NCBI RefSeq assembly: GCF_947496875.1
Contig: NZ_CANMEH010000008.1
Coordinates: forward strand, 1-64,000
DNA: 64,000 nucleotides
Direction of reading: 5' to 3'
Origin: an uncultured Paracoccus sp.
GTDB lineage: Bacteria; Pseudomonadota; Alphaproteobacteria; Rhodobacterales; Rhodobacteraceae
The notes beneath the pieces are model-generated. The model made no database searches and was not told the DNA's origin. It saw nothing but the letters and a program-made list of their open reading frames with translations. This document shows, piece by piece, positions 30 through 8,742 of the stretch; the stretch's first letter is position 1, and each line of letters starts with the position of its first letter. The translations under genes and the position numbers were made by a program.

Positions 30-653
30 ATGCCCTCAGGCCATCCGGGAAATTACACCAGCTTGACGGACGTGACCCGGACATGGGCTGAGCGCATGCT
101 GTACGAGCTTGTCGCAAACCCCGCGCTGCTGCTGGCGGTCCGCGTTTTCCTGGCGCTCGTCTTCGCCACCGCCGCATTGTCCAAGCTGGGCCACGCCGAG
201 GAGTTCTATGGCGTCGTCCGCAACTTCCGCATCCTGCCCGACGGGCTGTCCCGCCTGACCGCGCTTGTACTGCCGGTGGTCGAGCTCGCCGTCGCCGCGG
301 GCCTGCTGATCCGCGCGACGGCGGTGCCGGCGGCGATCGTCGGGGCCGCGCTGCTGACGGTCTTCGGGATGGCCATCGGCATCAACGTGCTGCGTGGCCG
401 GACCTCGATCGACTGCGGTTGCTTTCGCAACGGTCTGAAGCAGCAGGTCGGCTGGGCGCTGGTCGTCCGAAATGCAGCAATGGCCGGCGCCGCCCTGATC
501 GTCGCAGCGCTTCTGCCCGCCACAACCAGGCCGATGCCGGCCGAGGCGCTTGTCGGGCTGATGGCCGGGCTGGTCGCCCTGATGCTCTACCTCAGCGCCG
601 CGGCGCTGGGGGGGCTCCTGGCCGCGCAAACCATCTCGTCGAAAGGACGCTGA
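30..653 (+). CDS. mauE: MauE-like membrane protein of methylamine utilisation
   Basis: Predicted polytopic inner-membrane protein of the MauE/DoxX-like family. With MauD it is needed for maturation and stability of the disulfide-rich small subunit of methylamine dehydrogenase. The 207-residue frame has four to five hydrophobic helices and the DCGCF cysteine pair typical of MauE in its middle. An ATG at 96 would give 185 residues, closer to the usual family length; the start at 30 follows the preceding stop directly, so either is possible. mauD begins 2 bases after its stop. It looks intact, but its partners downstream are deleted or truncated, so it probably has no job left here. Confidence 0.8.
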   Translation: MPSGHPGNYTSLTDVTRTWAERMLYELVANPALLLAVRVFLALVFATAALSKLGHAEEFYGVVRNFRILPDGLSRLTALVLPVVELAVAAGLLIRATAVPAAIVGAALLTVFGMAIGINVLRGRTSIDCGCFRNGLKQQVGWALVVRNAAMAGAALIVAALLPATTRPMPAEALVGLMAGLVALMLYLSAAALGGLLAAQTISSKGR

Positions 654-654
654 C

Positions 655-897
655 ATGACCAATCTCCTGATCGTTTCCAACGTCATGCTGTGGATCGCCT
701 TCCTCGGCGTGACCATCGTGATGCTTGGTCTGCTGCGGCAAGTCGGGCTTCTGCACGAACGCAGTTCGCCCATGGACGCCATGATCACCGACCACGGGCC
801 TGACATCGGTGACAAGGCGCCCGAGCTGGACCTGAAGGATCACGATGGCCGTGTGGTCAAGGTGGGCGGCCCCGCCGCAGACGGACGGCAGACCGAG
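655..897 (+). pseudogene. mauD: mauD 5' remnant (N-terminal anchor only)
   Basis: The first about 80 residues match MauD: a membrane anchor near residues 3-25, then LLRQVGLLHERSSP and GPDIGDKAPELDL leading into the thioredoxin-like domain. Intact MauD (about 200 residues) carries a CPxC active site soon after this point. Here the frame passes into unrelated sequence near base 897 and stops at 1113 without any CxxC. The break is probably the left edge of a deletion that also removed mauA and mauC, which normally lie between mauD and mauJ. An AAAGGA ribosome-binding site precedes the ATG. Confidence 0.75.
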
Positions 898-899
898 CC

Positions 900-1271
900 G
901 GGCACGCGACTGCTTTCGGCCTTCGGATTGCTACACGCGGCGAACAAGGGTGATCCGGCGCGCCGCCACGTCGATGTGGCGGACTTCCGCGTGACGACCC
1001 AGATGCTCGCTCATGCGGGCGCCGACGATCAGACGCTCATCGGGCTAAATCTTGAAGAGCTGCTCGCGGTACTGCAGCCGTGGCACCAGCGGCTGGTCGG
1101 CCGGACGGCGTAAGGCTGCCATTGTGCGACACGCTGCCGGACCGCCAGCGGCTTTCGCGGATGGCGAACCTGGCCGATCTCGTGGCTCATCGCCTGCTTT
1201 CGTCCGAGGTCAGCGCGCGCGCGCTGGACGCATCGGCACGGTTACCCGTTCCAGAGGCGGCGTCATGCTGA
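900..1271 (+). pseudogene. unrecognised coding remnant before mauG, possibly mauJ 3' end
   Basis: Two adjacent frames read as helical, protein-like sequence: one from about 900 to 1105 (containing LNLEELLAVLQPWHQRLVGR), continued in another from about 1105 to 1271 (containing LADLVAHRLLSSEVSARAL). The second ends in a stop at 1269-1271 that overlaps the mauG start. A frameshift near 1105 would join them. In mau operons mauJ immediately precedes mauG, so a mauJ tail is the natural candidate, but I do not recognise the sequence and rely on position only. Confidence 0.35.
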
Positions 1272-1918
1272 GGGGGGCTCTGGGCCTTGGTGCCATCGTC
1301 ACCTGCTGCTGGGCGGCAGTTGCGCTTGCCGCCATCGCCCAGCCTGCAAGGAACCGGACGCCCGACTCCGGCCGGTTGATCGCCTTGGGCGAGCGGCTGT
1401 TCTTCGAAACGGCGTTGTCCAGGAACGAGAGCCAGTCCTGTGCGACCTGCCACGATCCTGCCCGGGCGTTCACGGACCCGCGCGAGGGCAGGGCCAAGCT
1501 TGCCGTCTCCGTCGGCGACGACGGCGAGTCTCATGGCGACCGCAACACGCCGACGCTGGGATATGTTGGGTTCAGTCCCGAGTTCCACCTGTCTGACGCG
1601 GGGGTCTACAAGGGCGGGCAGTTCTGGGATGGCCGGGCCGCGAACTTGCGGGACCAGGCCGGCCAGCCAATGCTGAACCCCGTCGAGATGGCGATGCCTG
1701 ACAAGGAAACGGTCGCCGCCCGCCTTGCAGCCGATCCCGCCTACACGGCCGAGTTCGAAGAATTATGGGGCCGCGGGACGCTGGACGACGCAGATCGAAC
1801 CTTCGCTGCCGTGTCCGAGGCACTTGCCGCTTACCAGCAGACGCCGGAGTTCGCGCCCTTCGACTCCCGCTATGACCGCTGGCTGCGCGGCGAGGACAAG
1901 TTCACGGGTGAGGAATAG
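1265..1918 (+). pseudogene. mauG: mauG, truncated after the first haem domain
   Basis: MauG is a periplasmic dihaem enzyme of the cytochrome-c peroxidase family that matures the tryptophan tryptophylquinone cofactor of methylamine dehydrogenase. This frame starts with a signal peptide (about residues 1-26) and has the first haem site CATCH at residues 59-63, followed by recognisable MauG/CcpA sequence (GGQFWDGRAANL, NPVEMAM). It stops with TAG at 1916-1918 after 217 residues, where the family runs to roughly 390. The second haem site and C-terminal half are absent, and the sequence beyond the stop does not resume the family in any frame I read. Not functional as written. Confidence 0.8.
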
Positions 1919-4165: not shown

Positions 4166-6856
4166 TCAGTTGACCGCTGGGGCGTCGGATGCGTTCTTCA
4201 TCAGGAACTCGGTCACCAATGTGGCCTCCGTGTCGTCCAGGCCCGCCCGCGGGTACATCGAGGGGGTGATGCCCCGCCACTGCAGCTGGGTGAATCCCTT
4301 AGGGTCACGCGGGCCGTGACAGACCGTGCAGCGCTGATAGAAGATCCGCTCGCCGGGCTCCATGTCGGCGTAGAGGGACTCCACCAGTTCCGAGACGCGG
4401 TCCAGGGCCAGCGCATCCTCGTCGATCGCCGCGAACTGGTAGTCGCTCAGGACCACCGGCGGGGCATAGGCCCGGTTCGGACGCTCCGCATCCTCGCACT
4501 TGCTGAGCGACGCCACGCAGGTATTGGCAATTGTCGCCTGCGTCAGGCCCGTCGCCGGCCGCTCGGAGGTGAGCCAGTTGATCTGGCCCGAATTGCACCG
4601 GCCCTTGCTGTCCAGATCCGGCCAGCCGCCTTCGTAGAGCGACATGACCCCGGGCATGATGTCGTCCGACAGCACCGCCCCGGCGATGACCGCGCCACGA
4701 TCGTTGCGGATCTCGACCAGGTCACCGTCCGCGATTCCCCTCGCTTCGGCGTCCTGGCGGTTGATCCGCACCGGCTCCCGTCCGTCTATCATGTAGAGCT
4801 CCCGCAAGCGGGCCGAGTTCCCCATCTGGCTGTGCAGGCGATACCAGGGATGCGGGCTGACCACGTGCAGCTGACCCTCCTGAGCATTCCCGAGATATTC
4901 CAGCGGCTCCTGCCAGATCGGCATGCCGGGATTGTCCGCCACGCCATAGTCCGCGATGGTCTGGCAGAACATCTCGATCCTGCCCGACACCGTATGCAGC
5001 GGATGGCCATCGGGGTCGTTGTAGAATTCCCCGTGCCGGACCCACTTGCGGGCTTCGGGCGGCGGAGGCTGGAGGGCGTAGCCCTTCTCCCAGAACTCCT
5101 CGAACGGGGTGGTCTGGGCGGCGCCGGTGCGGCCGTAGGCAGCCTGGATGTGCTCCATGAAGTCGAGCCCGTCGGTGAACTGCATCCACAGGCCGAACTT
5201 GTCGGCCAGCGCCTCGAAGATCTCGTAGTCGCTCTTTGACTCGCCCTGCGGCTCGATGCATTTCTTCATCGCGTAGATCTTGTCGTTGGAATAGGTCCCG
5301 CCGACCGAGATGTCGTCTCGCTCCATCGTCGAGGAGGCCGGCAGCACGATGTCCGCCCAGCGGACAGCCGCCGTCCACCAGACGTCCTGGCTGACGATCG
5401 TGTGCAGCTTGGAAAACGCCTTGATGAGCCGGTTCAGGTCCTGCTGGTGTGACACGAAGTTGTTGCCGGCGTTATAGATCATCCGGATGTCGGGATAGGT
5501 GCGGATCTGGCCGTTGTAGAAGAACTCCTTGCCGGGGTTCTCCAGCATCTCGGTGATGCGGCTGGCGGGGCATAGCTTGTCTACCAGGTTCTTTCCCGAG
5601 GACAGACCCGTCGGTGTGGGCTGACCCGATTGGGGCATGCCGCCATTGCCGTAGTGCCAGCTGAAACCGACACCTTCGCCCGGCTTGCCGATCTTGCCGA
5701 TCAGCGCCGCGAAGTTGATGATGGCGTGGTGGACGAGCTCGCCATGATGGGCGCGCTGCAAGGACCATGCCCCCGCAAACTGGGTACGCGAATTGGCGAA
5801 CAGTTCGGCCATTTCGCGGATCTTGTCGGCCGGGATGCCGGTGATGGCGGCGGCCCACTCCGGCGTCTTCGGTGTGTCATCGTCGCCTTCGCCCTGGACA
5901 TAGGCGATCCATTCCTCGGACCCCACGGTGTACATCGCCATGTACTCGCGGTCCTCCAGTCCCTCCGCAAGGACGTGATGGGCCATTCCCAGGAACAGCG
6001 CGATGTCGGTGTTCGGAATGATCTGCACCTATTCGGCCGCCAGATACTCGTCCGAGGCGGTGCGCTGCGGGTTGATCGAGATGAACCTGCAGCCCGCGTC
6101 CCGGATCTCGGCCCACGGTCCGTACATGCCGTGGTCGGCCACGGTGAATTCGATCCGGTTGTTCTTGATGGGGTCGCACCCCACCAGCACGAAGACCTCG
6201 GTGTTGTCGCGCACGACCTCCCACGCCGTCTGCGGCGAATAGACCTCCATGTCGCCGATGATATGGGGCAAGGCGACCTGACTTGCGCCCGCCGACCAGT
6301 CGCCCTGCGTGATCGTGCAACTCCCGAACAGGTTGAAGAAGCGCTGCTGCATGACGTTCGGGCGGAACGAACCGGCGTTGGACCAGCCGCCGTAAGACGA
6401 GCTGAAGATCGCCTCGTTGCCGTTCTCCTCGATGGTCTTGAGGATCGCGTTGCCGGCGAGGGCCAGCGCGGTGTCCCAGTCCACCCGGACGAACTCCTCC
6501 TTGCCGCGCAACTCGGGCTTGGTGTCACCCGTCTGCCAGCCGTCCAGATAGGATTTACGGACCATCGGATAGAGGATCCGGGTGTCGTCATAGACCCGGT
6601 CGATGGTACCCAGCATCAGCATGTCGGTGGGCTGCTTGTCCAATTCGACAACGGGGCTGATCCCGACCAGCCGACCATCGCGGACAACGGCCTCGAACGG
6701 TCCCCAGTGCGAGGCGTGGAACACCCGCTGCCCGTGCGAATTGGGATCAATCGCCGCCAGCGCGGAGCTGTTCAGCAACCGTCCGGCTCCGGCAAGACCG
6801 AGGGCTGCCACGCCAGTCTGCATGAATCCACGGCGGGAAAGCGGGAAGGCGGACAT
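4166..6856 (-). pseudogene. TorA/DorA-like molybdoenzyme fused to a c-type cytochrome, interrupted by one in-frame TAG
   Basis: Periplasmic molybdopterin reductase of the TMAO/DMSO reductase family. The 896-codon frame starts at 6856 with a twin-arginine signal (SRRGFMQTG) and keeps the serine molybdenum ligand in GDWSAGASQ (Ser188), DPIKNNR, and the later TorA blocks (INPNTD-like PNTDIALFLGMAHH). After the molybdopterin domains there is a C-terminal extension with one haem site, CTVCH, at about residues 843-847, followed by QLQWRGITPSMYPR. This resembles the last haem domain of TorC-type cytochromes. Codon 276 is TAG (6029-6031), exactly where TorA has Trp (E-W-I/V), i.e. TGG to TAG. A GTG follows immediately, but restart there would lose the signal and the Mo ligand. 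No torC, torD or sensor genes are adjacent. Called a pseudogene on the sequence as given; a sequencing error or suppression is possible. Confidence 0.85.
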
Positions 6857-7071
6857 GCCGAAATCCTTTCAATCTGAGCACTGACCAAGAATGGACCGCC
6901 TGCGAGCGGCATTCGGTGATCTGGATCGAGGACTGGGTGTTTGCCGGATGGCACGTGTCAAGGAGGGAAGCGCCGCGAATGATTGTTTCACCGACATCGA
7001 GCGTCTGGTGAACGATTTGCCTGAATATGGCGCTTTCCCTCACCCGTGCACCCATCTGGGAGACCCGAGCC

Positions 7072-7563
7072 ATGATTTTCTTGTTCGCTGCCCCCGGGGC
7101 ACGACTTGCGACAGCGGCGGCTGTTTCACTCCTGCTGTCCGCGCCACTCCTTGCCCAGTCGGCCGCGGAAACCAAGCCCGTTGCCCCCGTCCTGCAGGAG
7201 AGCGCCGGTGATATGCCCGCCAATCCTCACGAGATGCTGGGTGAGCTGACGGGAGGGCCGGACGGCTCGCCGACGGCATTGCGCGGCAACCCGCTGCCCG
7301 GCACCTCGACGTCGATCCCGACCACCAACCCCGCGCCCGTTGTCCCGCTGTCTGAGCGGCAGGGCCAACCTGTGGACTGCGAGAGAACCGGCATCGAAGG
7401 CCAGTGCGATCCGGTGGTGGGATTGGGCAACTGCCCGGAACCTTCGCAGGCGCGGTCAGGGCTGAGGGACTCCGACGCGCTTGCACCCGGACCCGCGGCG
7501 GTGGGAGGGGGTGACCCTGCTGCAACTGACGCCGCTGACGGCCCGGCTACACTCGAGAATTAG
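7072..7563 (+). CDS. small secreted protein, unknown function
   Basis: A 163-residue frame with a credible signal peptide (hydrophobic residues about 10-24, ending in a LLAQS-A-like cleavage region). The rest is Pro/Gly/Ala-rich, with a CERTGIEGQCDP stretch containing two of its few cysteines. An ATG at 7027 in the same frame adds 15 residues ahead of the signal, so 7072 is preferred. It is divergent from the molybdoenzyme gene. I do not recognise a family; low-complexity composition leaves some doubt that it is a real gene. Confidence 0.45.
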   Translation: MIFLFAAPGARLATAAAVSLLLSAPLLAQSAAETKPVAPVLQESAGDMPANPHEMLGELTGGPDGSPTALRGNPLPGTSTSIPTTNPAPVVPLSERQGQPVDCERTGIEGQCDPVVGLGNCPEPSQARSGLRDSDALAPGPAAVGGGDPAATDAADGPATLEN

Positions 7564-7754: not shown

Positions 7755-7778
7755 TGCGCACCAGTCGACTGGTGCGCA
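7755..7778. promoter_or_regulatory. perfect 24-bp palindrome, candidate operator
   Basis: The half-site TGCGCACCAGTC is followed with no spacer by its exact reverse complement. The core ACCAGTCGACTGGT has the form of operators bound by dimeric TetR-type repressors. It lies just ahead of the relic of a zinc alcohol dehydrogenase, the kind of gene such repressors often control. No repressor gene is in the vicinity. Confidence 0.5.
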
Positions 7779-7867
7779 ATGACGGCTCCGAAATCAGGCT
7801 GAGCCCATTCTGGCGAAATCCGAACCGGCACTCGGCGATCCTACGGCAGTGTCCGATTTGCAGCTGC

Positions 7868-8077
7868 GGCTCCGAATGGATCGACGCCGCCTTCGATGCG
7901 GTTGACGGGCCACAGGTTGCCGTTACTGCCGAGACCATCCGTCTCCGTGGCACCATCGTCATCCACGGTGCACCCAGCAATGAGCCCACCCAATTCCCGC
8001 TGAAGGTCGCCCTGCGCAAGAACCTCTCCTTGCGCGGCTGTCACTTCACTGAAATCACCGACGAATGGTCGCCATGA
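7868..8077 (+). pseudogene. zinc-dependent alcohol dehydrogenase / quinone oxidoreductase, internal fragment
   Basis: About 65 residues match the cofactor-binding half of medium-chain dehydrogenases. WIDAAFDAVDGPQV corresponds to the usual VDVVFDPVGGPQV. It is followed by LRGTIVIHGAPSNEPTQFPL and LRKNLSLRGCHFTEIT, close to the family's GGTIVIHGALSGEPTPFPL and LSLRGYxFTEIT. The N-terminal catalytic domain and the C-terminus are missing and the frame closes at 8077. Relic of a deleted gene. Confidence 0.65.
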
Positions 8078-8163
8078 AGTGCCTTCCCTCCTGCATCGGA
8101 TGTGCGGGCTTCAACGAGGCGAGACGCCCCCCCAGAGAGCCGATTGTTGCCTTGGCGCTGCTC

Positions 8164-8340
8164 CTACGGGTAGAACACGCCGCCGACCGCTCGGCGGGGT
8201 TTGGTATTCGTCTCGGGAAGCGGGATGAAGTCTGCCTCATCGCCCGGGACGGTGTCGAAGCGCCCACGCCGCCATTCTTCCTGCGCTTGCTCGATCCGCT
8301 CCTTGCGCGATGAGACGAAGTTCCACCAGATCCAGTGCGG
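8164..8340 (-). pseudogene. pirin-family protein, C-terminal fragment
   Basis: The last about 58 codons match the pirin C-terminus very well: [16 protein letters not shown], then [19 protein letters not shown], before a short tail ending at 8164. Pirins are iron-binding cupins, some with quercetinase activity. No cupin core precedes it; upstream sequence in this frame is unrelated and overlaps a permease relic on the other strand. Only the tail of the gene survives. Confidence 0.65.
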
Positions 8341-8385
8341 CCCATCATCGCCCATTTGGTCGGCCGCCAGGCCGGGGCCATGACC

Positions 8386-8742
8386 GGGCAACTGCGCGCC
8401 GACGCGCCGCGCGGGGCCACGCTCTGGGGCTACGAGCTCGCTCCGCGGCTGCTCGGCCCGTTTCTGGCGCTGTGTCTTTACCGCTGGGAGATTATCGTCC
8501 GCGAAACGGCCGGGATGGGATTGCTGGGTATTGCCACACTCGGCTTCTTCATCGACAGCGCGGTCGCCGAGCTCCGCCTCCACCGGGCGATGGTCCTGCT
8601 GGTTGCCGCCGGTCTGCTGACGGCCGCGATCGACAGCATCTCGCGCCTGGTCAGACGGCGGATCGGCGCGGGTGGCGGCCGAGCGCTCCCGCACGAGGCG
8701 CGGCTCCGCAGCGGTGGGCCGAGTTACACGATCGCTTGGTAA
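8386..8742 (+). pseudogene. PhnE-type ABC transporter permease, C-terminal fragment
   Basis: The frame ends with the EAA-loop and last membrane helices of a PhnE-like permease: [19 protein letters not shown] fits the PhnE pattern YRWEI-x-R-x-x-x-x-x-GLVG, followed by a helix and a basic end (RLVRRRIG). Family members are about 270 residues with a full set of membrane helices; here only the final quarter remains and no binding-protein or ATPase gene is nearby. A dead tail. Confidence 0.55.

Follow-up and report, generated by a model that had tools for sequence, protein, structure and literature searches.

The minus-strand frame at positions 4166–6856 of the window (the whole 64 000-nucleotide stretch analysed, from an uncultured Paracoccus sp.) is predicted to specify a TorA/DMSO-reductase-like molybdoenzyme with a C-terminal mono-heme cytochrome c domain, and it is interrupted once, by an amber codon. 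By far the best explanation is that it is a very young nonsense pseudogene, formerly encoding an accessory enzyme with a patchy distribution and a history of repeated loss. A single base substitution would have created the TAG, at codon 276, in a gene whose putative product is a periplasmic reductase of the S/N-oxide (TMAO/DMSO) type with a fused cytochrome c domain; ribosomes served by RF1 should halt there and release a 275-residue stub, in which ~69% of the protein would be missing, with the heme domain and most of the cofactor-binding domains among the lost parts, and which should not become an active exported enzyme. This account takes the base to be genuine, termination to be efficient and the stub to be inactive, all of which we infer. 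A sequence-only reading had left a very young pseudogene, an error and a leaky stop standing side by side; the first is now favoured, the second is improbable and the third found no support.

The interrupted frame

Read directly, positions 6029–6031 of the plus strand are CTA, which is TAG in the minus-strand frame. The latter runs for 896 codons before its final stop, with the TAG as its sole internal stop, as the sequence-only reading had claimed; a whole-genome search for the enzyme likewise flagged the window locus with one TAG. For the base composition of the window, ~18 stops would be expected by chance in a random frame of 896 codons, and the probability of meeting at most one is 3 × 10−7. 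The earlier observation that family sequence goes on at both sides of the stop was borne out: the nearest relative shares 88% identity across residues 1–896, and tblastn comparisons with relatives place codon 276 within a conserved stretch, with homology unbroken on either side. Several motifs are intact, namely SRRGFM (6821–6838, minus strand), which we take to be a twin-arginine (Tat) type motif, a YGGW stretch, and the CTVCH heme c binding motif of the C-terminal domain (4316–4330, minus strand). If the stop is obeyed, the predicted product (6029–6856, minus strand) has 275 residues, which span the Tat motif and the beginning of the molybdopterin domain; downstream lies an open frame of 620 codons (4166–6028, minus strand), with a GTG start directly after the TAG.

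A reductase-like enzyme fused to a cytochrome c domain

The read-through translation scores above the Pfam cut-offs for PF18364, PF00384 (residues 93–552) and PF01568, which correspond to the N-terminal, catalytic and dinucleotide-binding domains, respectively, of the molybdopterin oxidoreductase superfamily. The best-scoring NCBIfam model is that of the bisC family (TIGR00509), although its 830.8 bits over residues 48–801 are below the cut-off of 1017.55; the TorA model (TIGR02164) gives 637.7 bits, below a curated cut-off of 1465. The best solved-structure relatives are DMSO reductases and TMAO reductases: the Rhodobacter-type DMSO reductase (PDB codes: 1eu1 and 1dmr) and the TMAO reductases (PDB codes: 1tmo, 9h4t and 7l5i) align over nearly the whole catalytic part, the alignment to 1eu1 covering residues 45–788. 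Judged by its domains and solved relatives, the window gene would thus encode an S/N-oxide reductase-like enzyme. It differs from these structures in scoring under the TorA and bisC cut-offs, in carrying a stop, and in its heme domain, since the alignments stop short of the latter, near residue 788–801.

The mono-heme cytochrome c domain occupies positions 4181–4390 (minus strand). The end of the TorC profile matches residues 823–892 weakly (25.7 bits, far under the cut-off of 478.2). The CxxCH motif is kept in all 70 full-length relatives of >50% identity (60 with CTVCH, nine with CTLCH and one with CSVCH), and because of this the enzyme can be placed in a reductase–cytochrome c fusion clade. 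According to record titles, the members come mostly from Rhodobacteraceae and their allies, with a few others, for example Castellaniella, Thauera and Stutzerimonas. A 2023 review describes the molybdenum cofactor as the sole prosthetic group of the TorA/DorA/BisC enzymes (PMC10609526). Neither a reductase–cytochrome c fusion nor the codon-276 lesion was met in the titles and abstract openings covered by our literature search. Roseobacter denitrificans has a heme-c-containing TMAO reductase of ~90 kDa per subunit, known from older literature and not met in our literature search; it would resemble the window fusion in having heme c within a subunit of that size. Growth of R. denitrificans on TMAO is recorded (PMC3141670). 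Elsewhere in the window genome there are two paralogues of 38–39% identity, neither with a stop inside the match.

A private and probably very recent lesion

Relatives were taken from loci that share short peptide patterns with the query, a set that is not exhaustive, and were compared only through stretches of >35% identity. This gave 79 loci, 72 from the peptide-pattern search and seven others (L013, L015–L018, L040 and L041). The codon table covers 71 of these plus the window copy, as eight with <800 residues in one stretch were left out (L131, L137, L138, L143, L145, L146, L147 and L151); the 70 full-length, fusion-type relatives further omit L149 (37% identity) and count at least one genome twice (L018 and L132). 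At residue 276, these 70 have Trp in 60 cases, Leu in four, Arg in four and Ser in two. The sequence-only reading had raised the case in which relatives also end the protein at this codon: none of the 70 does so, and the lesion is private to the window genome within this set, which holds no genome of the same species. All seven full-length relatives of >80% identity have an open frame and Trp at the codon. The nearest, at 86–88% identity, are those of P. endophyticus, P. chinensis, P. sanguinis, Paracoccus sp. S-4012, a Paracoccus MAG and Pelagivirga sediminicola, whereas the ten relatives with another residue are 66.3–71.5% identical to the window copy. In the DMSO reductase 1eu1, the aligned residue is Val. 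The description of the site as a conserved Trp therefore holds for the close relatives but is too strong for the clade, in which Trp is common and not universal; from this range of residues (Trp in 60 of 70, with Leu, Arg or Ser in the rest, and Val in 1eu1), Trp would be favoured at position 276 and not essential.

Branch-wise Nei–Gojobori estimates with five pairs of references and bootstrap limits gave dN/dS values of 0.076–0.117 on the branch of the window copy versus 0.102–0.169 on the reference branches. Values past the stop (0.067–0.118) are similar to those ahead of it (0.076–0.112): four of the five pairs give a slightly higher value past it and one a lower value, and the intervals overlap. 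Neutral evolution could account for no more than 6% of the branch when the whole gene is considered (upper 95% bootstrap limit), and for up to 8% in single parts. A second measure considered 277 positions that do not vary among the 60 other sequences of >60% identity: the window copy differs at two of these, compared with 0 to 5 in the other sequences and 24 in one more distant copy. These patterns indicate that selection on the gene stayed normal up to the very recent past, and any loss would be very recent, because the branch dN/dS is as low as in intact relatives. Lack of decay is expected alike from a very young pseudogene, from a sequence error and from a gene whose protein is still made, and by itself does not decide among the three.

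Patchy distribution and other broken copies

A fusion-type match (≥70% identity, E < 1e-100) is present in 13 of the 125 Paracoccus genomes searched, the window genome included. A further genome (G039) retains residues 7–224 only, at 59% identity; the homology ends ~850 bases before the contig end, where there is, by reading, transposase-like sequence.

Within the peptide-pattern set, 70 of the 72 loci have a stretch of >45% identity, and seven of these 70 relatives are broken, each differently from the window copy; three of the seven are MAGs, which are likelier to hold errors. L087 (a MAG) has TAG at codon 170; judged by length and match it is the same contig copy as L039, and it has Ser, not Trp, at 276. 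In L131, homology is missing ahead of residue 96, a TAA stands at 613 and the frame shifts near 863. The frame changes near codon 300 in L137, between codons 296 and 383 (where codons are also lost) in L143 (a MAG), and near codon 60 in L151 (a MAG that is also at a contig end). In L145 and L147, homology starts only at codons 454 and 462, respectively, beside frames that read as insertion-sequence genes. L138, which its contig end truncates, is not counted among the seven. Together with L030, these seven copies suggest recurrent loss.

With tblastn, in-frame stops were seen well inside five relatives: TAG at 170 in L039, at 388 in L067 and at 662 in L070, and TGA at 247 in L071 and at 189 in L037. 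None of the five is at codon 276, and the TGA in the distant L037 is perhaps a selenocysteine codon. Stops flagged at query residues 788–813 were discarded, as they lie at or past the ends of shorter unfused paralogues and look like normal ends, and at several other flagged loci tblastn found no stop within the aligned part. Absence of the TorD chaperone was considered as a sign of decay, there being no match to PF02613 in the window genome; it proved uninformative, since five of ten genomes with a relative of the enzyme likewise have none.

Genomic neighbourhood

Synteny was examined at 12 loci with flanks of at most ~12 kb. In the flanks compared, the only other DNA common to the window and its close relatives is a divergent frame at 7027–7563 (plus strand), which is open and would encode a small secreted-looking protein; its start is signal-like, by reading. 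A homologue adjoins the enzyme gene in all seven relatives of >80% identity. Copies were found in the window and at L081, L082, L083, L084, L085, L086, L013 and L203. They share a core, GSPT(A/S)x(R/H)GNPxPGTSTSIPTxNPA, followed in the aligned copies by TGIxGQCDP; six aligned sequences, two of them from P. sanguinis, have 45 invariant columns, 43 of which lie in residues 67–137. A strict pattern for the protein occurs at ten of 83 loci, all in the close group and with some copies counted twice; it is absent from the 70% clade, where a diverged form could escape it. Pfam gives no match for the window copy; in P. sanguinis, a lysozyme-inhibitor-like MliC domain follows. We would hazard a guess that the small protein is a periplasmic accessory to the reductase.

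At L203, on the P. sanguinis plasmid NZ_CP051543.1, the relative has an annotated reading frame of 2.7 kb and lies at most a few kb from transposase genes of IS5 and IS3, as would fit a mobile reductase gene that travels with its small neighbour.

Beyond the small gene, positions 7772–8742 hold a cluster of probable gene fragments. The first (7772–8077, plus strand) has ~65 residues of homology to zinc-type alcohol dehydrogenases, with a Pfam score just below the cut-off. Sequence matches at 8164–8742 suggest the end of a pirin-like gene, represented by 29 residues of the Pirin_C profile on the minus strand, and perhaps a permease: the stretch matches regions annotated as ABC transporter permease, and its plus-strand frame has no Pfam match. 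The enzyme gene sits between these probable fragments and a stretch of 2.2 kb on its other side, in which no tested frame reached a Pfam cut-off and only a weak match to a transposase zinc ribbon was seen. At the start of the contig, positions 30–1918 (plus strand) carry genes that resemble those for MauE and MauG/cytochrome c peroxidase; they hint at a cluster for methylamine dehydrogenase that the contig end has truncated.

The enzyme gene appears to be a dispensable accessory, given its presence in a minority of Paracoccus genomes, the independent breaks elsewhere, the neighbouring gene fragments and the two stop-free distant paralogues.

Sequence error, readthrough or a split gene

The foremost alternative is that the TAG is an error of the public sequence, arising from a base call or the assembly consensus, and that the living gene is intact. 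The source assembly is a draft of 112 contigs, and the gene shows no further decay, its branch dN/dS and invariant positions being like those of intact genes. However, just 281 of the 8055 possible single-base changes to the frame result in a stop, so that a random substitution error would rarely look like this one. Breaks occur in further copies of the family as well, in two cases beside frames that read as insertion-sequence genes, and real single-lesion pseudogenes are common in bacteria: in a Salmonella survey, 346 of 378 pseudogenes had a single lesion, and most were strain-specific (PMC2916853). The window gene resembles this common kind in having one lesion in one genome and an otherwise conserved sequence, although ours is a study of one gene and not of strains. 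We consider an error unlikely, if still the most serious competitor of a young pseudogene.

Far less probable is a leaky or programmed amber stop, at which some ribosomes would insert an amino acid to give the full enzyme, perhaps as a low-level switch. Both frame and selection are unchanged past the TAG, and the presence of Leu, Arg or Ser in relatives, and of Val in 1eu1, implies that several inserted residues might be tolerated. The machinery for reading the codon was, nevertheless, not evident. The search for an amber-suppressor tRNA that the sequence-only reading had proposed came back empty: profile searches with Rfam, followed by ARAGORN typing of the stretches found rather than of the whole genome, gave 40 tRNA genes plus a tRNA-Sec, and none of these 41 has a CUA anticodon. 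RF1 scores over its cut-off, and a second, weaker release-factor match is presumably RF2. Among 40 window frames picked by length and codon-position GC, which are not curated genes, 33 end in TGA, four in TAG and three in TAA; one of the four is the first piece of this gene, without which TAG ends three of 39. TAG thus acts as a stop here, and nothing was found to read it. Amber recoding, whether by pyrrolysine or by a suppressor tRNA, shares with the window gene a TAG inside an otherwise open and conserved frame, but it was rejected on the tRNA, RF1 and stop-usage results, and because the stop is not conserved: with none of the 70 full-length relatives stopping at the codon, there is nothing conserved about the TAG. 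It is similarly very doubtful that the stop is leaky enough for a trickle of full-length enzyme, in which case the codon of a non-essential residue would now throttle, at translation, an alternative respiratory reductase in the process of being abandoned by this lineage.

Selenocysteine is irrelevant to a TAG. The genome does have a tRNA-Sec gene (C4:178654–178745) and, ~7 kb from it, a molybdopterin-family gene with one in-frame TGA (G000:C4:169974–171434); the latter is formate-dehydrogenase-like by reading, and is probably an ordinary selenoprotein gene.

Finally, that the gene has been split, with a second, cooperating protein beginning at the GTG at 6026–6028, is scarcely credible despite the 620-codon frame that follows, as the break lies inside the molybdopterin domain (PF00384, residues 93–552), the second piece has, by reading, neither a Tat motif of its own nor a clear ribosome-binding site ahead of the GTG, and the seven close relatives are unsplit.

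Implications

The window case looks like a very young broken gene of an ordinary kind, with a sequence error as the less likely option, and not like a new way of reading a stop. By itself it means little, being one more fresh gene loss. It does have some use in showing a respiratory gene as decay begins, within a family whose members have been disrupted separately in other lineages, through nonsense, frameshift and truncation, and it points to a clade of heme-fused S/N-oxide reductases with a conserved small divergent neighbour.
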